DNA of 63,778 nucleotides from a virus: positions 1 through 63,778 of IMG/VR virus record IMGVR_UViG_3300036766_000471; one strand, 5' to 3'. Position 1 is the first letter of the stretch, and the number at the start of each line of letters is the position of its first letter. Positions 36,798 to 58,433 of this stretch are shown in pieces. A model generated the notes under the pieces. The model made no database searches, was not told where the DNA came from, and saw nothing but the letters and a program-made list of their open reading frames with translations. The position numbers and the translations under genes were made by a program.

Positions 36798-37934
36798 CTA
36801 CGTCCTCGCGTCTGCACTCACGAGCTTGGGCACCAGCACCATGACCCCAGCCTCGATCGCTGAAGAAGCGAACTGGTTGTACGAGAGCAGCCTGCGCCAT
36901 TGGTCCGGCGTGCTGTAGTAGCGCTGCGACACGTCCCGCAGGTCCATCGGGCCCCGCGCGATGAAGACCGCGAGCAGCGCGTCGATGTCCAAGCTCGCCC
37001 GCAGGTCGTCACCCTGCGCGGAGGCGATAGCTTGCAGGGACCGCGCAGAGGCTTTGATTTCCCGCGAGAAGGTGTCGGCCTGAAGTGCATCTCCCAAGTC
37101 GAGAGCTTCCGGGGTCGATGTCTTGACCAGCTCCAGCGGCGGGAAGGCTTCCACCGTCGTGACGATGGCGCTCGCCTGCTCCTTGATACTCTCCGCTGCC
37201 GCGAGGGCTCTGGACCCGGCGTCCTGTGGGGCGGAGATGAGCTGCGTGGCATTCGAGACTGCGCTGGTCATCTCCTGCGACGCACTGTCGATGATGCTCA
37301 CCGCGTCGTTCACCTGCGACATGAAGTCTTCGACGACTTGGAACTGAAGCGTGGCGGTGTCGATTGCGGCGGAGAGTCGGGCAAACGCAGTGGCCATCGT
37401 CTTTGCGAAGGAGTCTGCCTCCGGGGGCACTGACGAAGTGACCGGGGACTGCTTCTCGCCGCGAGAAATCCACTGGAATTCCATCTCCCAGTCTAGGTCC
37501 TCGAAGCGAATCCAGTTCTGCTTGAAGCGCGTGAGGATGCCGATGCGGACCTTGGTGCCCCACGTGACCTTGACCAACCTACCCGCCAACCGCATGCGCT
37601 CCACTGCGGTGACCAACGAGTCCACGTCGGCGACCGCTTGGTCATTGAGGCGCGCCACCGCAGTGGGCTCCACGCTCACGTTGTCGTCAGTGGTGGACCG
37701 AAGGAACTTGTCCTTCCACATGCCCTTGATGGTGGTGGGCTTCTCTTCCGCACCCAGCATCTGCACCGTGGCTACCGCGTTGCCGGGGTACCACGTCGTC
37801 TCCATGCGCATCGAGCCTTCCAGCTCGAACCCTTGGTAGGGCAAAGCGCGCCCGATGAGCGTGAGGGTGTCGCCACTCGTTGTCTCACCATCTGCGGCGA
37901 GTTGCGCAATGACGAATGCCGACTGGTCCGCCAT
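36798..37934 (-). CDS. Tail/baseplate adaptor with C-terminal LysM-like domain
   Basis: The first 160 residues of this 378-residue protein are strand-rich and end in 'FRFEDLDWEMEFQW'-type segments; the middle is a long helix (about 180-320). The C-terminal 'DLRDVSQRYYSTPDQWRRLL' (about 330-349) is LysM-like, as in phage XkdP/gp53 adaptor proteins that join the tape measure or tail tube to the baseplate. It lies between the tape measure and hub genes, the usual position. Confidence 0.8.
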   Translation of the reverse strand: MADQSAFVIAQLAADGETTSGDTLTLIGRALPYQGFELEGSMRMETTWYPGNAVATVQMLGAEEKPTTIKGMWKDKFLRSTTDDNVSVEPTAVARLNDQAVADVDSLVTAVERMRLAGRLVKVTWGTKVRIGILTRFKQNWIRFEDLDWEMEFQWISRGEKQSPVTSSVPPEADSFAKTMATAFARLSAAIDTATLQFQVVEDFMSQVNDAVSIIDSASQEMTSAVSNATQLISAPQDAGSRALAAAESIKEQASAIVTTVEAFPPLELVKTSTPEALDLGDALQADTFSREIKASARSLQAIASAQGDDLRASLDIDALLAVFIARGPMDLRDVSQRYYSTPDQWRRLLSYNQFASSAIEAGVMVLVPKLVSADART

Positions 37935-39817
37935 CAGCGAACTCCGTTGAGAGCGTTCGTGTACGTGGAGCTGGAGCGCATCTCACCCAGCGACGAAATG
38001 TCGTTCGCGAAGGCCACTGCGATGCGGTCTGGGTCGAAGCCCTCTGCGAAGTTCTGGGTGATGTCGAAGCGCGCGTTGGGGAAGTTCATCTCCTGCTTCG
38101 AGGGCTTGGTGTCTTCCTTGTTTTTCTCTTTCTTCGCATCGGCCTCCCGCTGCGCCTTGTTGCGCGCGGTGCCCGCGTTCACGTCCTTCTGGTACTTAGC
38201 AGTCGCGCGTTCTAGGCCGCTGCCGAGAGCATCTGCCGCCGTACTGATGGCGAGAAATGCTGGGTTGTGCACCTGCATCGCAGCGTCGTAAGCCTTTTTT
38301 GCCTGCAACGCCGCTTCTATGTAGTTGCCCTTCATCAACTCCACGATTACGCCGCCAATCGCCGTGAGCATTTTAAGAAAGGGGTCGTACACGTTTTGCT
38401 TGAGCGCGAGCGGGAACTGCTTGAAGAACTCGTCAGCCATGCTGCCAAGTTCACCAATGGCATAGCCCATCAGCACCCACCCACTGACTGCCGTGTCCAC
38501 GATCTCAAAGATGGCCAGCACGAGACTGGTGGCCATGTTCGTCAGCGTGTCGAGTGTGCCCGTCCCAGCGTCGGCTGCACCAAAGAGCCTGCCCACCGCT
38601 TCAGTGATGATGTCAATTTTCGCTTTGAACTTGTCCCACAGCTCCATCAGCGCGTCACGAGCGCCGCCGATGTTCTCGGAGAAGCCGCGGAAGGCGAGGG
38701 CTGCGATGGCGACAGCGGCGCCAATGGCAAGGAGCATCGGGCCAGCAGCGGCGAGCACCTTGAGCTGCCCGCCGATGTCCCCCTCGGCTGCCTTTCCTGC
38801 CGCTTTTTTCCCCATTGCGCCAAACGGACCTCCGGCTGCCATTTTCCCGAGCATGCCAGCGGGGCTGGTGAGGCTCGCCACCATGTCGAGCATCTTCTTG
38901 CCGGTCATCACCAGCACGAAGGCTTTGGCGGCGATGACGATCGAGTCCATATGGGCCGCTACCCAGCTCATCGCGTCTTCGAGCTTCGGGAGAAACCCTT
39001 CCAGACGGTCAGCGAAGCGCTCCGCCATGTCCGCGACGATGGGGTAGAGCTTCGAGATGACCGTGACCTTGATACGGTTCCACGTGTCGCTGATGCGGTT
39101 CTGCGCGGACTCGATGCGCTTGAAGGCATCCATCTCGGTGTCGCCGATGAGGCCCTTGCCCCCAGCCTTTGCCGCACGGAGCTTCTTGGGGTCGAGCTTC
39201 CGAAGAAACTCTTCCATGTTGTTGGCCTCGCGCTGGGGAATCTTGAACTGCCCCATCAGCTCGCCAGCACCAATCTTTCCTTTCTTCACCGCATCGGACA
39301 TCGCGATGAGGGACTCAACAGGCCCCTTCTTCAGGTTCACCCCGAGGGCCTCGAACTTCTTGGCGAGCCCCGGAACTTTCCCAGCCGCAGCAGCCTGTGT
39401 CGTGGCCAGCATTGCTCCACGTCGCGAGAGCTGAAACATCGTCTGAGACATCGCGTCGTAAGCGACACCCGACCTACGTGCAGAGCTGAAAAGTAAGTCC
39501 GTTTGGCTAACCGCGGCACCGGTAAGGTTAGACACCTCCTTCAGGTTGTTCATGTACTTCTCGGTGGACTCGATCGCTGCGTGGAGCGAGAGCCCCGCGC
39601 CTACCACCGCGCTGATGCCCGCCATGCCTTGGAGAATGCCGAAGAGGTGCCCGAAAGCCCCACCTCCAGCCTCGCCGCCGTGTGCTGCGGCTTTCCCAGC
39701 GTGGTCGAGCCCTGCCGCGGTCTTCTCCGCCTGCGCTGCAATCTTGGCCAGCGGCCCGGTGGCAGCGTCGATGACCTTGAGGTGCGTCTCGATGATTTGT
39801 TCAAGCGTCTGCGCCAT
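37934..39817 (-). CDS. Tape measure protein
   Basis: The 627-residue protein is helical with an N-terminal coiled-coil (residues 1-45), a Gly/Ala-rich hydrophobic segment (about 50-80), a long mid-region and two or three further hydrophobic helices near the middle (e.g. about 335-345 and 355-375) and after residue 430. Tape measures fix tail length at roughly 1.5 A per residue, so about 90-95 nm here. SD AAGGAGGTCG lies before the ATG. The gene follows the frameshifted chaperone, the standard order. Confidence 0.85.
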   Translation of the reverse strand: MAQTLEQIIETHLKVIDAATGPLAKIAAQAEKTAAGLDHAGKAAAHGGEAGGGAFGHLFGILQGMAGISAVVGAGLSLHAAIESTEKYMNNLKEVSNLTGAAVSQTDLLFSSARRSGVAYDAMSQTMFQLSRRGAMLATTQAAAAGKVPGLAKKFEALGVNLKKGPVESLIAMSDAVKKGKIGAGELMGQFKIPQREANNMEEFLRKLDPKKLRAAKAGGKGLIGDTEMDAFKRIESAQNRISDTWNRIKVTVISKLYPIVADMAERFADRLEGFLPKLEDAMSWVAAHMDSIVIAAKAFVLVMTGKKMLDMVASLTSPAGMLGKMAAGGPFGAMGKKAAGKAAEGDIGGQLKVLAAAGPMLLAIGAAVAIAALAFRGFSENIGGARDALMELWDKFKAKIDIITEAVGRLFGAADAGTGTLDTLTNMATSLVLAIFEIVDTAVSGWVLMGYAIGELGSMADEFFKQFPLALKQNVYDPFLKMLTAIGGVIVELMKGNYIEAALQAKKAYDAAMQVHNPAFLAISTAADALGSGLERATAKYQKDVNAGTARNKAQREADAKKEKNKEDTKPSKQEMNFPNARFDITQNFAEGFDPDRIAVAFANDISSLGEMRSSSTYTNALNGVR

Positions 39818-47389: not shown

Positions 47390-48790
47390 TTACTCGCCGT
47401 GCTCCACAATCACAGCGCGCTTGAAGTACGCCGCGTCGCCAGTCGCACCGTCAGTGCGCACAGGCCAGTCGCCGATGAACTTCCACGAGCTGGACACCAT
47501 GTCCTGCAAGCGGTTCAGCGGGGCTCGGATGATGAGCTGGATGCGCTCGGTGAACACGTCGATGCCGTTGTTGGTGATGCGCGGCTCGGCGAGCTTGCCG
47601 GTGATGCCTGCCTCGGTGACGAGGTTGGCGAGGTCGAGGTGGTACTCCATGATTTGCCCCTGACCCGTGAACATCGGACGGTGCACGCGAACACCCGTGG
47701 TCACGCCCGTGTTGAACAGTTCACCCGCGAAGTTGTCGTCCTGCGAGTACGTCGCAGTCAGACCGCCCGTCACCGTCTCCGGCAGGGGGCTCTCGGTGTT
47801 CCGAATGAAGATGGTCCCGAGCAGCACACCGATGCCGAACTGCTTGTACATGTAGTAGTCCGGCATGGACGTGAGCAGGCGCTGGAACTCGGCGTCCGCG
47901 AAGATCTGGCTCTCCGAGGTCGGGTCCATGTGGCAGTGGAAGTACCCGTCCTGATGCTCGGGCACGTTCATGCTGCGCATGCGGGCGCACGCCGCCCGGA
48001 TGTCGGCGAGCCGGAACAGGTCCGAGCTGCCCACGTCGTCCACCTTGAAGCCGCCACCCACGCGCACCAGCGAGGTGCGGGTGTCCGCAATCACGTAGTC
48101 GCGATCGACCACGCTGATGGCAGCACCGTCGAGGGTGATGGTGCCGGGACCGACCTCATCCCCCGCCACGTCCGCGGCGAAGCCGATGACGTTCCGGCTC
48201 AGCTGCGAGCCCGCGAAAATCTTGATGGGGAGCGGGTTGCTGGGGGACACAGCGAGGTACTGCACCGCCGAACCCGCCACGAGGTCCGGGCGCCGGGCCT
48301 TGGTGAAGCCGTTGAGGCGCTTCACGCGAATGGTGTTGGTCGGGCCCTGAGCACCGTCCGCCACGGTCCACCCCGACAGACCGGCGTTGTACAGCCGGTT
48401 GCGGGTGATGCCGTTCAGCGACTGCCCCGCCTGCAAGCCCAGCTGCTGGGCGTTGCGGTAGAACAGGTTCGCGATGGCGACGATCGCGGTCGGCATGTGG
48501 GTGTCGATCGAGCTGGCGTACTGCTGCGCGACCGCTTCCCACTGCTCCGCGCTGAAGCTCTGCGGAACGGGGTCGTTGCCGGGGACCAGCGGCTTCTGCT
48601 GCTTCGGCAGCAGCCCGGTGCCGGTGAAAATCTGCCGGTCGCCGATGTTGGCGGGCCAGAGCACCGGGGTTGCTTCACCGCGGTACAGCAGCCGGGGGAA
48701 CAGCGAGTCGTGGAACGCTCGTTCGAGAATTCCGTCCTGCACCAACGCCCGAATCTCGGGCGACTGGGCGATTACTGAGAAGTCAGGCAT
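47390..48790 (-). CDS. Major capsid protein
   Basis: The 466-residue protein has an N-terminal helix, then the HK97-like body: 'FHCHMDPTSESQIFADAEFQRLLT' (split around 280-305), 'GIGVLLGTIFIRNTESP' (about 318-334) and a C-terminal 'LQDMVSSSWKFIGDWPVRTDG' strand. These recall the N4 gp56/P22-coat-type capsid groups. It follows the scaffold gene, as expected. SD AAGGAAG precedes the ATG. Capsid identity is strong by context; the exact subfamily is not decided. Confidence 0.87.
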   Translation of the reverse strand: MPDFSVIAQSPEIRALVQDGILERAFHDSLFPRLLYRGEATPVLWPANIGDRQIFTGTGLLPKQQKPLVPGNDPVPQSFSAEQWEAVAQQYASSIDTHMPTAIVAIANLFYRNAQQLGLQAGQSLNGITRNRLYNAGLSGWTVADGAQGPTNTIRVKRLNGFTKARRPDLVAGSAVQYLAVSPSNPLPIKIFAGSQLSRNVIGFAADVAGDEVGPGTITLDGAAISVVDRDYVIADTRTSLVRVGGGFKVDDVGSSDLFRLADIRAACARMRSMNVPEHQDGYFHCHMDPTSESQIFADAEFQRLLTSMPDYYMYKQFGIGVLLGTIFIRNTESPLPETVTGGLTATYSQDDNFAGELFNTGVTTGVRVHRPMFTGQGQIMEYHLDLANLVTEAGITGKLAEPRITNNGIDVFTERIQLIIRAPLNRLQDMVSSSWKFIGDWPVRTDGATGDAAYFKRAVIVEHGE

Positions 48791-48908: not shown

Positions 48909-49790
48909 CTACACGTGACCGTTGATTCCGCGTGCTCGAAGGAGATCCGCGTACTGCTTCGGGTCCATCTTGCGCGCATCGACTCTCCCGCCCTGCGACT
49001 GCTGGGAGGTCACCTGACCCGGCTGGGGAGGCTTCGGCGCACCCCCTTGACCGATTCCGGTGTTCGCGGGCTGCACCGTTTCTCCGAACAGCAGAGGCTT
49101 CGTCTTCCGAAGTCCATCGAAGAACGCCCGCTCGTCGAACTGCGCAGCCTGCTCGGGGGTCAACTTCTCCACCTCGCGGGTGAGCAGCATGATGCTGTAG
49201 TCCACGTCTTGGACGCCGACTCCAGCCGCGATGGTACGGAGGTGCATCTCCGCCCGAATCGCGTCCACTTCCTGCCGCGCTGAGTCCAGTTCCTTCCGGT
49301 ACTCGGAAGCGGACTGGGCATAGCGGTTGCGCTCGTTGAGGGCCTTCTCCAGATTGCGCTGGAGCGCCATCTCTGCGCGCTGCTGCCCGCGGGTCGCGAC
49401 CTGCCCCGCCTGATTCGCCGCCAAGTCCTCTGGCGTTTCCTCGGGAGGAACCGGCTGCGGCGCTGCCTGTCGTGGGGCGACAGGTGCAGGCGGCTTCTGT
49501 CTCAACTGAGACAGAGCAGAGACGAGATCTGCGTGGTTTTCATACCCCGCGTCCTTCGCCAGCTGGTCCAACCCCGCCTGCCTTCCCTTCGCGAAGGCTT
49601 CATCCTTTTCCCGCTTCATCGCGGAATGGGGAATCATCATCACCTTCGGTTCCTGCGGAGCCTGCTGCTGCTGCACAGGGGCCGGGGGCGGCGCCACTTG
49701 CTGCGTGGGATCACTGCCACCGGGCTGCTGCACTTCTTGCGGCATCACGTCTTCAGGCATGTCTTTTTTCCTCGGTACTGTCTCCGACAT
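48909..49790 (-). CDS. Capsid scaffold protein
   Basis: The 293-residue protein has a Pro/Gln-rich N-terminus (residues 20-50), a coiled-coil middle (about 140-190), then 'VQDVDYSIMLLTREVEKL' and 'FDGLRKTKPLLFG' (about 195-235) and a flexible Gln/Gly-rich C-terminus. This is the usual layout of internal scaffolds, including the end that binds coat protein. It lies directly before the capsid gene. No protease domain is visible. Confidence 0.82.
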   Translation of the reverse strand: MSETVPRKKDMPEDVMPQEVQQPGGSDPTQQVAPPPAPVQQQQAPQEPKVMMIPHSAMKREKDEAFAKGRQAGLDQLAKDAGYENHADLVSALSQLRQKPPAPVAPRQAAPQPVPPEETPEDLAANQAGQVATRGQQRAEMALQRNLEKALNERNRYAQSASEYRKELDSARQEVDAIRAEMHLRTIAAGVGVQDVDYSIMLLTREVEKLTPEQAAQFDERAFFDGLRKTKPLLFGETVQPANTGIGQGGAPKPPQPGQVTSQQSQGGRVDARKMDPKQYADLLRARGINGHV

Positions 49791-49964: not shown

Positions 49965-50417
49965 TCAGGCGATGTCGAACTTGGCGGTCATGTCCGCGGT
50001 GGGCCCCGCGATGTAGCGGAACACGACGCGAGTGACGGTGTTGGGGAAGGTCACCGTGGTGATTTTCCCCGCGCCGGTCAGCCCAGCGCCGGGAGCCGCG
50101 ATGCCCTGCGCCGAAGCGAGGCCGATGGCGGTGTTCGCGCCACCGGGCGGCAGCAGCGGGGTGGTGGCGCTGTTGCCCACCATGTAGTGCCCGACCGAGG
50201 CCGCGGTGCCTGAGGTGATGACGTGGGCCGAGAGAACGGCGAGCGCGCCCTCGGGCAGCGGCACGGCAGCGACGCCCGTGATGGTGCCGGTGTCATGCTC
50301 CTTCATCTGGAGCAGGTTGCCGAGGTCCACCTTGCGGAGCGCGTCGGCGAGCCGGTTCGGGTCCGCCTCGGTGAGGACCTTCTTGAGAGTCTCGGTTGCA
50401 GTGGTGGTGCTGGGCAT
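49965..50417 (-). CDS. Head-associated beta protein, possible decoration protein
   Basis: The first 50 residues of this 150-residue protein are helical ('LKKVLTEADPNRLADALRKV'), the rest strand-rich with Gly/Ala/Thr and a final 'TRVVFRYIAGPTADMT'. Small beta proteins before the scaffold often decorate the capsid. No enzymatic motif. The assignment is by position. Confidence 0.6.
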   Translation of the reverse strand: MPSTTTATETLKKVLTEADPNRLADALRKVDLGNLLQMKEHDTGTITGVAAVPLPEGALAVLSAHVITSGTAASVGHYMVGNSATTPLLPPGGANTAIGLASAQGIAAPGAGLTGAGKITTVTFPNTVTRVVFRYIAGPTADMTAKFDIA

Positions 50418-50457: not shown

Positions 50458-50838
50458 CTACGATTTCTCGCCGAGGAAAACTCGGACGGTGGTCAACGTG
50501 CTCGCAACGCGCGTCAAGTCGATAGCGGTGAAGGGCACGGTGTCGGACATCAGGATGAGGTACGTGTCGAACGGAATGGCCTGCGCTGTGCCATCGGCAC
50601 TGGTGAAGCGGGCTTTCACCTTGCCCCCAGTCGCCTTGAGCAAAATGACGTTGGCGTTCACCACACCACCGAAGGGGACAGCAACCGCGGAGTCCACCGA
50701 CAGCGTGAGGTCCGCCAGCTCCTTCACCTTCAGCGTCTTCCCCTCGGAGATTTGCGCGATGACGTTGGGCGCAAATGACAGAGGCTGCCCCAACGGGGCA
50801 GTCTCGTAGCTCCCGAGCAACTTGAAGGAGTCAGCCAT
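50458..50838 (-). CDS. Head-associated beta protein, unknown
   Basis: The 126-residue protein is strand-rich with alternating Val/Leu/Ala ('LADLTLSVDSAVAVPFG', 'VVNANVILLKATG'). It resembles in style the 150-residue neighbour. It probably belongs to the capsid surface or its assembly. Confidence 0.6.
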   Translation of the reverse strand: MADSFKLLGSYETAPLGQPLSFAPNVIAQISEGKTLKVKELADLTLSVDSAVAVPFGGVVNANVILLKATGGKVKARFTSADGTAQAIPFDTYLILMSDTVPFTAIDLTRVASTLTTVRVFLGEKS

Positions 50839-50856: not shown

Positions 50857-51054
50857 TTACTTCGAGCCGAGCGGGCCGACCGTGAAGGGGCTCGGGTCCA
50901 CCGAGCCGGGGAGCGACCCGTAGGCGGTCTTGCTCTCCACGTCTTTTTCGTCCGCGGCCTTGTCGGCGTAGGTGCCGGTGGCCTTCTCGATCTTCTCGAA
51001 AACGTTTCCGTCGCCTTCGGTGGCGCTCTTCAACAGGTCGTTCAGGTTGTCCAT
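50857..51054 (-). CDS. Small acidic protein with C-terminal SPFTV motif
   Basis: The 65-residue acidic helical protein ends DPSPFTVGPLGSK. The same ending, with small changes, closes the next two genes and, more loosely, a third. No fold recognised; the shared C-terminus suggests a common binding partner, perhaps a capsid or chaperone site. Confidence 0.65.
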   Translation of the reverse strand: MDNLNDLLKSATEGDGNVFEKIEKATGTYADKAADEKDVESKTAYGSLPGSVDPSPFTVGPLGSK

Positions 51055-51091
51055 GTTCGGTTCTCCGGTGAAGCGGTGTTGGGGCGGGGGC

Positions 51092-51289
51092 TCAGCTGCC
51101 CTTGATGGTGAACGGCGACGGGTCGAGCGCGGTGGGCATCGCCGCGTCCGGCGCGGGGATGCTCATCGGCTGGTACTTGCCGTGCTCCGCGTCGTAGATC
51201 TCGTTCGAGAGCTTGCCGTCGCCCTTCGAGATGGGACCGCCGTACTTCGAGGTGTTCGGGGTGTCTTTGCCACTCGTCTCGTCGGACAT
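51092..51289 (-). CDS. Small protein with C-terminal SPFTIKG motif
   Basis: The 65-residue Lys/Gly/Ser-rich protein ends ALDPSPFTIKGS. It lies between two genes with the same C-terminal motif. No other feature recognised. Confidence 0.65.
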   Translation of the reverse strand: MSDETSGKDTPNTSKYGGPISKGDGKLSNEIYDAEHGKYQPMSIPAPDAAMPTALDPSPFTIKGS

Positions 51290-51294
51290 GGAAA

Positions 51295-51540
51295 TCAGGC
51301 TCCCTTGATGGTGAACGGCGCGGGGATGTCGAGGGGCTTCGCCTCGCCGGGCTGCTTCAGCTCCAGCGGCTTGTAGTCCTGCGTGGGCTGTTCCTTGGTG
51401 ATGGGGTGCCCGTGCCGGATGTCGTAGGCCGGACCCTCATCGAAGTTCGCCGGGTCGTTCTTCTCCATCGCGGTCTGCCGCGGGGTGCGGTGAGAGAGCT
51501 GCTCACTCGCAAGGCTGCCCTTTTTGGTGTCGTCCGCCAT
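51295..51540 (-). CDS. Small protein with C-terminal APFTIKG motif
   Basis: The 81-residue protein starts MADDTKKG (set from the ATG at 51540) and ends IPAPFTIKGA. The middle is Lys/Glu/Gln-rich and probably unfolded, with a proline-rich stretch. Third member of the motif set. Confidence 0.65.
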   Translation of the reverse strand: MADDTKKGSLASEQLSHRTPRQTAMEKNDPANFDEGPAYDIRHGHPITKEQPTQDYKPLELKQPGEAKPLDIPAPFTIKGA

Positions 51541-51553
51541 GGGTCGTCGCTCC

Positions 51554-51925
51554 TTACTTCGTGGTCTTGAAGGGGGAAGAGTCGGACGATTCCAGCTCGC
51601 CGTCCGCGTCGTTGCGCTGCCACCGCGAGGCGAAGCCTTTGACCTGCGACTGCGAATTGCCGTCGAAGTCGAGCGGGTCGAAGAACTCCGGGTCACTCTT
51701 GCCGCCGACCGTGCCCATCGGGAGACACCCCATGCCGTAGTCGTTCTGCGGCATCGCGCCCTTGTCGCGCGAGTCCACCATCGGCTCCGGCTGCTTCGGG
51801 GACCGCGGCCAGTCGCCGAGGTCAACGCCGGGGTTCTTCATCCGTTCCTGCACACGGAGGTTGTACGTCTCCATCTCTTCGTGGAAACGCTTCTGGTCCT
51901 CGATGTCGATCAGTCGGATGGTCAC
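51554..51925 (-). CDS. Small head-region protein with a looser SSPFKT ending
   Basis: The 123-residue protein starts at GTG 51925; a TTG at 51961 is an alternative, and neither has a clear SD. The N-terminus is helical ('RLIDIEDQKRFHEEME'), then Pro/Asp-rich, ending SSDSSPFKTTK. The ending matches the motif set only in Ser-Pro-Phe. Confidence 0.6.
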   Translation of the reverse strand: MTIRLIDIEDQKRFHEEMETYNLRVQERMKNPGVDLGDWPRSPKQPEPMVDSRDKGAMPQNDYGMGCLPMGTVGGKSDPEFFDPLDFDGNSQSQVKGFASRWQRNDADGELESSDSSPFKTTK

Positions 51926-52029
51926 GTAGTGCAGTGTATGGTCACGGCTTCGGAGGCGCAAGAATCCGAGGCTTTAGTTTTTCTGCGCCGCTTCGTAGCT
52001 GAGGGTGACCGCGCTGCGCAAGCTCCGCG

Positions 52030-52524: not shown

Positions 52525-52842
52525 CTACTTCACGTAGACCTTGGCACCCGACGCGCTCACGTAGTACGAGCCGCCGCGTTCGCCGGTTTGCAGATTCTTT
52601 TCTGCCCCAGCTTTTGCTGCGGATTCCATCTCCTTGAGCTTGCCCTTCTGCGCGGAAAGTACCGCCGAGGATGCCTTGGCCAAGCGATCGACCGCCTTCC
52701 ACCGTGGGTCTGAGTTCGGGAACCGTTTGTTCCCGAGCTGTTCCCGCTTCCGGTGAATCGCTCCCCACGTCTCGTCGAGCTTCTTCCTGTCGAAGCTCTT
52801 GAAGCGCTCCGCCAGCTGCTTCAGCGTTGGACCCTTCGCCAT
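52525..52842 (-). CDS. Small basic protein with GGSYYV...KVYVK C-terminus
   Basis: The 105-residue helical protein with many Lys/Arg residues ends 'RGGSYYVSASGAKVYVK'. The 'RGGxYYxxxxGxKxYVK' motif is known at the C-termini of various phage head and other large-virus proteins, probably as a small beta structure. Role unknown. Confidence 0.65.
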   Translation of the reverse strand: MAKGPTLKQLAERFKSFDRKKLDETWGAIHRKREQLGNKRFPNSDPRWKAVDRLAKASSAVLSAQKGKLKEMESAAKAGAEKNLQTGERGGSYYVSASGAKVYVK

Positions 52843-53757: not shown

Positions 53758-54105
53758 TCAGCGCTTGCCCCCATCGTAGGGCTTTGCGTGTCCGGCTTTC
53801 ACCATCTCGTCATTCACGTCCGAACCGCCACCGTTCGTGATGCGGCACAGGTAGCGCCCGTACTTCTCCTGCTCATCTTTCTTGGTGACGACTGTGAGCG
53901 GCGTGGGGGTGAGCAGGCTGGTGAGGTAGTTCATCGCCGCCTTGCCGCGCTCCTTTTCCGCGAGGTCCTTTGAGTGCAGCTCGGGCGCGTTGATTCCCAG
54001 CAAGCGGAAGCGCTGCTCGGTGAAGACGTTGAAGCCGAGATCGATGCGGAAATCCACGGTGTCGCCGTCGAGGACTTTCAGAAGCGTCGCTTGGTAGGTG
54101 AACAT
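53758..54105 (-). CDS. Thermonuclease-fold (SNase-like) protein
   Basis: The 115-residue protein begins 'YQATLLKVLDGDTVDFRIDLG' (about 3-23) and has 'RFRLLGINAPEL' (near 31-42), 'EKERGKAAMNYL' and 'DEQEKYGRYLCRI', the SNase fold with the DGDT Asp, the Arg and the Glu around the active site. It may cut nucleic acid or be a structural variant; catalytic Arg/Glu are present by pattern (R31 region and E36-R76 equivalents not confirmed). It lies in the head operon. Confidence 0.8.
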   Translation of the reverse strand: MFTYQATLLKVLDGDTVDFRIDLGFNVFTEQRFRLLGINAPELHSKDLAEKERGKAAMNYLTSLLTPTPLTVVTKKDEQEKYGRYLCRITNGGGSDVNDEMVKAGHAKPYDGGKR

Positions 54106-54115
54106 GAGCCGAGTT

Positions 54116-55069
54116 CTACACCGGAACGCGGTCGCCGCCCACGTACCGCCAACCCGGAACACCCCAGTCCTTCATCCACGGTGAAAGTACAGCACGATCA
54201 TTCGGACGATTTGGCGGGAAGGCCCAGCTCAACCCCACGAGCGCCTCGGGCACATCGTAGTTACCCTTCTTGTCTGGGAACGGTGCGGTGTCCGGCATGG
54301 TGAACTCGTCGCCGGGCTGCACCACCTGCCCGTGCATCGCGATGGAGTCCACCGCCACCCGATCATCGAGCGGCGCACCAGAGTCGTCGCAGTGCTCTTC
54401 CCACCGCATCATCAGCTCGGGTATTTCCTCCGAAGCCTCCATGATGCCGTCGCGGTGGGTTCCGTTGTAGGCGTAGGCCATCTCGGTGCGCACGATGCGC
54501 TCCCCCTGCCACCACTCACCGTCAATCGCCTCTGCGATGGTGTCGATGACCTCGCTTGGGGCCTCGCCCTTGAGCATCGAGAGAGCCATCTCGCTCTCCA
54601 CGTTCTCCACGATGCGAACACCGTACCGAGCCATGGAGGTTTGATTCGCCCGCAGCATCGTGGAGGCCCGGTTCTGGAGAACGCCCGCGAAGACCGCGGC
54701 CTCTTCGATGGGCAGCGTGATTTCCGCTCCGGTGAAGTGCTTGTGCAACCGCTTCACGTCGGTCACCAACCCGGTGAGCGCCTTCTCCTGCGCCACCTTG
54801 GTGAGCGGCGTCATGTCCCCAGCGAGTCGCTTGGTGATGAGCGCCTGCCCCTCACGCAGCTGCGCTTGCACGATGCGCATCTGGTACGCGGTAAAGGTGT
54901 CGCTCCGCCCGGTCCTGATTGTCTTGGCGATTTTCGCCACGAGCTGATTCTGCGCCTCGTCATAGAGGCGCTTCATCTTCGAGGCAGCATGCCCCGCCAG
55001 CGTCTTCTCCAGCCGGTTACGATGCGTCTGCACCGCTTGGTGAAACACCTTGGGGACGCGCTTGGTCAT
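54116..55069 (-). CDS. Minor head protein, MuF (SPP1 gp7)-like
   Basis: The 317-residue protein has a helical N-terminal half with Lys/Arg residues and a C-terminal domain 'QGERIVRTEMAYAYNGTHRDG' (about 192-212), which matches the MuF-type domain found in phage minor head proteins associated with the portal. It lies after the portal genes, typical of this family. No added toxin or enzyme domain is visible. Confidence 0.78.
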   Translation of the reverse strand: MTKRVPKVFHQAVQTHRNRLEKTLAGHAASKMKRLYDEAQNQLVAKIAKTIRTGRSDTFTAYQMRIVQAQLREGQALITKRLAGDMTPLTKVAQEKALTGLVTDVKRLHKHFTGAEITLPIEEAAVFAGVLQNRASTMLRANQTSMARYGVRIVENVESEMALSMLKGEAPSEVIDTIAEAIDGEWWQGERIVRTEMAYAYNGTHRDGIMEASEEIPELMMRWEEHCDDSGAPLDDRVAVDSIAMHGQVVQPGDEFTMPDTAPFPDKKGNYDVPEALVGLSWAFPPNRPNDRAVLSPWMKDWGVPGWRYVGGDRVPV

Positions 55070-56558: not shown

Positions 56559-58433
56559 TTAGACGGTGGGAGGCTGCGGCGCGGCGGGCGGCACCGGGAG
56601 AGCTTCCCCCGGTTGAGGCGGCGGCTGCTCCCCACCACCCAGCATCTGGGAGAACATGTCGGCTTGACCCCCTGCCGCGGCCTCGCGCACCTTGTCGAGC
56701 AAGTCACTCTTGTCTTCGACCTTGAAGTAGGGCGCGACGAACCCGACTGCCGTCTCGTCGTCGATGACGCCCCCCGTGAGCGCTGCCACGGCAGCTGTCG
56801 CGGCCTTGTTCACGTCGTCGAGAGAGGGCTGGAAGTAACCGGGCCACTTCAACGTGATGGTGCCACCAGCGCCGGGGATGCGCTCCTTGGGCACCATGGC
56901 CCCGGTGACATCCTTCTCGTACCGGGGCGGGACCAGCACGGTGCCACGGACGATGGTCGGCTGCTGCGCGCCACCCACGATGCCATCCGTCACCTCACCA
57001 GCACCACCCACGGAGCTGCCGGTGTTGCTCTCAGGCGTCTCCAGCTGCGGCGTCGAGCCCTCCAGCGGGTTGACCTCGGGGCCGGGAGGGAGCTGCGGCG
57101 GCACGAGTTGGGGGGCTTCCTGTGGCGAGATTGACCGAGGCTGGCCCACGATCGTCGCCGCGCGGTACATCATCTCCAGCAGCGGAATGACGCCACGCTG
57201 CCCGTACTGTTCGCGGTACACGTCGGCCTTGGAGAGCATCGCTTGGTACATGCGCTCCACCTCAGTCGCCGTCTTGCCCGCGGTATCCGGGTGCTCAAGC
57301 ACGCACGCCGTCATCTCCAGCACGTTCTTGCGGAACTGCTCTGCCTGCTCCATCGCTGCCTTCGGGCCGCTGGCTTGGAGTTCGAGGTAGCTGGCGCTGC
57401 CATCGGGCACACGGAGGGCGTTGTCGCTGCCCACGCGCACCTCGTTCAACTCCGCCTTGCTGGTGATGACCAGCGTCGGGTCACAGTTCGCGATGATGCC
57501 GCGGTGCGCCTGCGCGATGAGGGCGTCGATTGCTTCCGCCGTCTGGAACGCCGCGGGGGGCAGGTCCGGGTCCCCATCCTCTGAGTCCTGCACCGGGGCG
57601 TTCTGCACCCACACCACCGGGCAGAAGCCGAAGTTGTGCACCGCCTCGCGTGCCACAACCCACTCCGGCTCTTCGCCCTGCTCTACCGCAGCAGGCTCGA
57701 AGAGGGTGTCCTTCTCCTTGTCGATGACGCGCCGGTACCAGAACTCCTTGGTCGCCCACTTGAGCGTCTGCGGGTCGAGAATCTCCTTCGGGTAGCGGTA
57801 GCGCTTCTCCAGCGCCACCAGCTCCATCGAACCGTGCTCCACGAACTCGGGGAAGAGCCACCGCGGGTCGTGAACCTCCACCACCGGCTTGCCGTTCACG
57901 AACTGGAAGCCGATGGCGACGCTGCCCATCGCCCCGCCATAGGTGCGCGCGAGGAACAGCTGCTGCCAGAGACGGGACACCTGCACGACTGCGCGAAGCC
58001 AGTCCTCGGTGTTCGGGTCGCCCTCCACCTTGACCTCGGGGTGCTGCTGCTCGCTGAAGAGCAGGCCCGAGAAGCGGTCCACGATTGTCTTCGGCAGTGA
58101 GTAAGGCGCGGTGGGGCGGCGGAACTTGAGCGGGAACCCAGCGTTTGACTGCTGAGCACCATTGACGAAACCGGGCGGGAGGTAGCCAGCATGCGCCACC
58201 ACCTCCGACGACATGCGATCGAGGTGCTCTCGCCCGTTCCAGTCGAGCTTGCGGCTCTCGTACTGCTGGCAACGGTAGATCGCCCACAGGTGGTTCAGCT
58301 CCTGCTGACGTTCAGTGAGGCCCAGCCGCCCGATGCGCCCCATGGCGTTCTGCGCCATATCCTTCGAGCCGAGTTTGCCCGTGAGGACGTTCACCATGCG
58401 ACCGAGCAAACCGGGAGTTGCGGGCAGACCCAT
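56559..58433 (-). CDS. Portal protein
   Basis: The 624-residue protein has a basic N-terminus, then the portal-type body with 'WAIYRCQQYESRKLDWNG' (near 49-66), 'APYSLPKTIVDRFSGLLF' (about 108-125), 'RLWQQLFLARTYGGAMGSVAIGF' (about 153-175) and a helical C-terminal region rich in Gln/Pro (about 440-624). Portals form the ring through which DNA enters the head. It lies upstream of MuF and head genes in the expected order. Confidence 0.88.
   Translation of the reverse strand: MGLPATPGLLGRMVNVLTGKLGSKDMAQNAMGRIGRLGLTERQQELNHLWAIYRCQQYESRKLDWNGREHLDRMSSEVVAHAGYLPPGFVNGAQQSNAGFPLKFRRPTAPYSLPKTIVDRFSGLLFSEQQHPEVKVEGDPNTEDWLRAVVQVSRLWQQLFLARTYGGAMGSVAIGFQFVNGKPVVEVHDPRWLFPEFVEHGSMELVALEKRYRYPKEILDPQTLKWATKEFWYRRVIDKEKDTLFEPAAVEQGEEPEWVVAREAVHNFGFCPVVWVQNAPVQDSEDGDPDLPPAAFQTAEAIDALIAQAHRGIIANCDPTLVITSKAELNEVRVGSDNALRVPDGSASYLELQASGPKAAMEQAEQFRKNVLEMTACVLEHPDTAGKTATEVERMYQAMLSKADVYREQYGQRGVIPLLEMMYRAATIVGQPRSISPQEAPQLVPPQLPPGPEVNPLEGSTPQLETPESNTGSSVGGAGEVTDGIVGGAQQPTIVRGTVLVPPRYEKDVTGAMVPKERIPGAGGTITLKWPGYFQPSLDDVNKAATAAVAALTGGVIDDETAVGFVAPYFKVEDKSDLLDKVREAAAGGQADMFSQMLGGGEQPPPQPGEALPVPPAAPQPPTV

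Follow-up and report, generated by a model that had tools for sequence, protein, structure and literature searches.

A shared C-terminal Pro-Phe tag on small head-module proteins of uncultivated phages, a candidate head-docking peptide

Our study reports on a short C-terminal tag that is common to a conserved cassette of small genes (A to D) lying between the MuF gene and the jelly-roll, scaffold and capsid genes in dozens of uncultivated phages. The window, by which we mean the whole stretch of DNA analysed, is the metagenomic IMG/VR virus record IMGVR_UViG_3300036766_000471, of 63,778 bases. The common C-terminus is real and broader than first described, and the main new evidence is that the tags carried by one genome vary together. 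We propose that the tag acts as a docking peptide for one common phage partner and recruits the products of A, B and C/D to the forming head; judged from sequence, we give this proposal an even chance of being correct.

In the direction of transcription the cassette follows the portal gene, the MuF-like gene, the thermonuclease-like gene, two small genes and a gene that weakly resembles Rz, and downstream of D come E, F, the scaffold-like gene and the genes for the major capsid protein, a neck protein and the tail sheath (Table 1). Re-reading the sequence confirmed that the neighbouring genes D, C and B end alike, as the initial annotation had stated. It had treated the end of gene A as a weaker match; gene A is instead a full member, its counterparts in relatives ending in PGxPFxLKK and similar sequences. 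Searches of Pfam and PHROG gave no match for genes A to D. The gene starts are our own calls on contigs that are metagenomic and partly incomplete: the start of gene A is a TTG in the ORF listing and is uncertain, while gene B was taken to start at the ATG at 51540 and is shorter than the listed ORF.

Table 1. Genes of the tagged cassette and of the surrounding head module in the window.
Feature	Coordinates	Strand	Description
Portal protein	56559..58433	(-)	28% identity to annotated phiKX1/phiKX2 portal
MuF-like minor head protein	54116..55069	(-)	phrog_4728 E 9.5e-6; Pfam PF04233 E 0.0014, below curated cut-off
Thermonuclease-like gene	53758..54162	(-)	phrog_452 E 6e-36; between MuF and cassette
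Gene A	51554..51961	(-)	135 aa; tag SSPFKTTK; body type common to L001 and L004 only
Gene B	51295..51540	(-)	81 aa; R-T-P-R...GxY elements in body; tag IPAPFTIKGA
Gene C	51092..51289	(-)	65 aa; YDxxHGxY body; tag DPSPFTIKGS
Gene D	50857..51054	(-)	65 aa; paralogue of C; tag DPSPFTVGPLGSK
Gene E	50458..50838	(-)	126 aa; predicted jelly-roll-like beta protein, candidate cement/decoration; conserved directly after cassette
Gene F	49965..50417	(-)	150 aa; conserved head-module protein
Scaffold-like protein	48909..49790	(-)	phrog_2303 head scaffolding E 6e-4
Major capsid protein (MCP), HK97-like fold	47390..48790	(-)	phrog_1357 E 1.9e-8; structure model

The capsid protein, used as a query, found 76 loci in IMG/VR, with identities that in most cases lie at 57-92%, and a scan with the capsid alignment added more. 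Where a locus extends far enough upstream, it nearly always has a run of two to four small ORFs that end in P-F-x-x.. and lie some 1.8-3 kb ahead of the capsid gene. The head-module location given in the initial annotation, between MuF and scaffold/capsid, holds on every contig retrieved by the tag peptide or by gene B, searches in which the capsid gene was not a query and which led throughout to the same head genes. The peptide PKAPDPSPF, sought as a DNA pattern in 2.9 million viral contigs, was found in 11 stretches, all of them this cassette with the same head genes. The carriers are a large group of uncultivated contractile-tailed phages that has no isolate in the collection searched. Among isolated phages there are only distant capsid relatives, Streptomyces phage Kromp at 33% and the Komagataeibacter phages phiKX1/2 at 27%, and a tblastn search of the isolated phages with B, D and E gave no match. 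Kromp and phiKX1 are without the cassette, and this capsid fold therefore does not need it. The only match in bacterial or archaeal genome contigs, an Armatimonadetes MAG contig (L077) with the capsid gene and the cassette, is a weak hint at the host.

Nearly all cassette proteins carry the tag in the form P-[F, sometimes Y/W/I/L/M]-x-hydrophobic-basic/Gly, with the consensus [D/T]-P-[S/A]-P-F-x-[L/I/V]-[K/G] and a variant P-F-x-N-[L/M]-[K/R], and its position is C-terminal in every member. The dereplicated set of cassette proteins from relatives has 158 members; within the final 18 residues, 125 of them have PF, 140 P[FYW] and 154 P[FYWILM]. The same stretch contains PF in 13 of 803 other long ORFs from these loci, and shuffling each of the 158 proteins gave a mean PF count of 9.5 and a maximum of 20 over 1000 rounds. 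The PF-type ends of the cassette proteins are not a product of chance. So that proteins were not picked by their tag, profiles were also built from the bodies alone, with the tag left out. These recovered 199 unique homologues, 177 of which have P[FYW] near the C-terminus, the exceptions being mostly changes of F to I, L or M, or of P to A or S (the gene B family has 65 unique body-HMM matches). Homologues without the motif, which the initial annotation had named as evidence against a tag, are essentially absent: 194 of the 199 retain Pro followed by one of the residues FYWILM. Outside the cassette only loose look-alikes were seen, such as the C-terminus of the tape-measure protein, and a limited literature search found no description of the motif in phages. 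Between 0 and 16 residues follow the tag Phe. A C-terminal degron was ruled out by reasoning on this distance, and the suggestion of a maturation-protease site was dropped on the same variability and on a scan of the genes around the cassette that found no prohead-protease family.

With the tag removed, the bodies of A, B and C/D have no homology to each other that profile comparison or BLAST could detect. Those of C and D are homologous, with hhalign probabilities of 89-96% against values near 0 for shuffled-column controls, and with 147 C-D pairs in body-only BLAST, where A-B, A-C, B-C and B-D gave one marginal pair each. The description of the bodies as unrelated-looking thus stands for A versus B versus C/D and falls for C and D, and simple gene duplication, raised at the same time as a possible refutation, applies to C/D and was rejected for the set as a whole. 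The position of gene A is filled by at least four unrelated bodies (the main type; that of the window, L001 and L004; that of L003 and L071; that of L032 and L035). Since all of these keep the tag or a variant of it, the tag is the constant element. The gene A slot looks exchangeable across genomes. That the common ends are a remnant of tandem gene duplication is, in our estimate, very improbable and largely refuted; the homology of C and D is what such an origin predicts, but it is at odds with the separate bodies of A, B and C/D, with the several bodies of gene A and with the fact that tags still co-vary in far-diverged genomes. The content of order-promoting residues is 0.18-0.22 in A to D and 0.19 in the scaffold, compared with 0.27-0.33 in MuF, F, portal, capsid and E; from this scaffold-like composition, A to D are probably disordered.

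If the tags serve one shared partner, those of a genome should change together. We measured this on the five residues from the aromatic onward, relative to permuted genomes, in a test devised after sight of two examples (L064 and L048) and treating dereplicated genomes as independent. Tags of different gene families are more similar within a genome than after permutation for A-D (45 genomes), B-C and B-D (59 genomes), each with p of about 5e-5, and more weakly for A-B (p 0.012), C-D (p 0.008) and A-C (p 0.09). With one genome per cluster of 72% capsid identity (30 genomes) all six pairs gave p values of 0.0001-0.011, and after dereplication at 66% (16 genomes) A-B, A-D and B-D gave 0.0001-0.006. 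The effect was weaker and still present when similar residue classes were merged (p 0.0017-0.17), and the 20 residues before the tag had no such effect, except for B-C in the dereplicated genomes. In L064 the tags read PYEIK/PYEVK/PYEIK, L048 has PY three times, and in L160 they read FKLGG/FKLGG/FKLNG/FKLGK. Vertical inheritance could lie behind part of these correlations. Gene conversion of the tag was considered and rejected: identical tag residues use the same codon in 122 of 187 cases, when 132 would be expected from codon usage. There is no excess of codon sharing, and synonymous variation is seen at the Pro and Phe codons. This makes both a DNA-level signal and recent gene conversion unlikely, and selection acts on the protein. 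Co-variation of the tags without matching change in most of the sequence before them and without gene conversion suggests the signature of one shared partner, and so lends support to the shared binding partner put forward in the initial annotation, as a candidate.

A constraint at the nucleotide level, such as a Shine-Dalgarno (SD) sequence for the next gene or an RNA element, would also keep gene ends alike. Lys-Gly codons of the type AAG-GGN can serve as SD, and among 173 genes 62 have a word resembling SD within the tag codons; against this, 76 of the 173 have such a word after the stop, the core CCN-TTY is pyrimidine-rich and varies synonymously in its codons, and the Phe of D is in many genomes some ten codons away from the stop. 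For the Pro-Phe core this explanation is largely refuted, and we regard it as extremely improbable. Co-variation would look identical if the tag were a short linear motif that binds a host protein (a chaperone, protease, polymerase or defence factor) and followed the host, and manipulation of the host is a role that fits small disordered proteins with a motif at the tail. Genes placed in the head module are usually virion or assembly components, however, and in all contigs examined A to D lie there, with MuF on one side and scaffold/capsid on the other; we consider a host target quite unlikely.

The tag divergence was then regressed on protein divergence in a Mantel-type analysis. Across 45 genomes the capsid protein (0.23, p 0.0015) had an independent term, as did MuF (0.15, p 0.0085), and the scaffold and E had none. 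Tag divergence followed the capsid protein (beta 0.22, p 0.001), not the body of gene B. The regression is unstable: in the 24 genomes for which the portal could be compared, portal was the best predictor (rho 0.43, beta 0.33, p 0.0035), with E marginal (p 0.036) and the capsid term not significant. This fits the capsid protein and portal weakly better than the scaffold, the jelly-roll gene or the gene bodies. The outcome favours a head-shell or portal partner without choosing between them, and leaves some room for a host protein. The tag may dock to a component of the portal vertex, portal or MuF, in place of the shell, in which case A to D would be portal-associated or ejected. The portal correlation and the independent MuF term speak for this alternative; the sample with portal is small, however, and in the larger set without it the capsid protein predicts best, and we hold a portal-vertex target to be unlikely on balance. 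Residues common only to the two genomes in which all tags have Tyr were also considered as a guide to the partner and set aside as too weak a signal, with three MCP positions (33, 212, 278) against a 95th percentile of 2 for control pairs; scans with the L064 and L048 capsids yielded no new all-Tyr genome with upstream DNA.

In the docking model that we prefer, the short C-terminal peptide would attach to a single phage partner common to all the tagged proteins. The likeliest site is one exposed during assembly on the portal or on the shell of the head. Through this contact A, B and the C/D paralogues, all small and probably disordered, would be brought to the head as it forms. We infer the capsid protein or portal to be that partner, and A to D would enter or coat the head, where they may be internal proteins, assembly aids or cement. 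Capsid loading, as first guessed, is plausible on this reading. In a more general form, the C-terminus would be an address label that co-evolves with one pocket of the capsid or portal, and small proteins could be swapped for one another and still be loaded inside the head or on its surface, with gene A as the exchangeable slot; such a plug-in system for cargo in a tailed phage, parallel to cargo loading in encapsulins, is possible but doubtful. If the docking model is true, these phages offer a natural and very short head-docking peptide, with about 65 natural variant sets for mapping its specificity, and a counterpart in tailed phages to the cargo loading of encapsulins. It would also single out the small genes with the tag, and gene A most of all, as candidates for head-packaged or injected proteins.

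The tag may be compared with the capsid-targeting sequence (CTS) of T4, with encapsulin cargo peptides and with herpesvirus scaffold tails, each of which differs from it in a defining feature; the likeness is one of analogy, and homology is established with none of them. The T4 CTS is N-terminal and is removed by the prohead protease. The T4 internal proteins have diverse bodies with this one conserved sequence (PMC3012670). One short peptide on diverse small proteins is also what is seen here, across A, B, C/D and the unrelated gene A bodies, with targeting as its putative role, but the tag is C-terminal in all members, no prohead-protease family was found among the genes scanned near the cassette, and the bodies look disordered by composition where those of T4 are folded. 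Encapsulin cargo is loaded into an HK97-fold shell by a short, usually terminal peptide, which in M. xanthus is LTVGSLRR (PMC11190991). By eye, and over few residues, this peptide resembles FTVGPLGSK in gene D of the window. The herpesvirus major capsid protein has the HK97 fold. It is bound by the C-terminus of the scaffold (PMC12474303). There, one tail is carried by one protease-cleaved scaffold, whereas here several small proteins are tagged and the scaffold-like phrog_2303 gene is separate, with its own conserved C-terminus (DARKM...LRxRG) unlike the tag. Decoration and cement proteins are likewise small and encoded in the head module, and in BPP-1 the HK97-like shell is paired with a cement protein of jelly-roll type (PMC3863775), with which gene E may be compared; A to D, in contrast, look disordered and have only a tail in common.

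The capsid model has a mean pLDDT of 71 and gave no significant match in Foldseek. When realigned, its best matches were phage HK97-fold capsids, led by KHP40 (Z 12.8, 4.6 A over 205 residues) and including KHP30, Pam1, GP4 and P22. The one encapsulin listed scored Z 6.3 over 147 residues, and the ranking gives no sign of encapsulins as special relatives of this capsid. The MCP and D alignments, used to search PDB sequences, returned nothing useful. For gene E the AlphaFold model, a beta protein predicted with confidence (pLDDT 90), has matches that include jelly rolls as well as other beta sandwiches, none of which stands out as a clear relative. Compared with viral models it comes closest to uncharacterised phage proteins, for example those of phiRSL1, Motura and BcepSaruman, and gene E may represent an unannotated cement family. 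The tape-measure-like protein (37934-39817, minus strand) has a C-terminus, DRIAVAFxxDLxxLGERRxQSGFxPLFxVR, that is conserved across relatives, many of which have a nearby Pro-hydrophobic pair and Arg; the window copy is without the Pro. A second common tail, approximately GxxYYVSAxGxKVYVK, occurs on several different small proteins of the module (52525-52842, minus strand, in the window; L003:6163-6459; L015:6973-7224).
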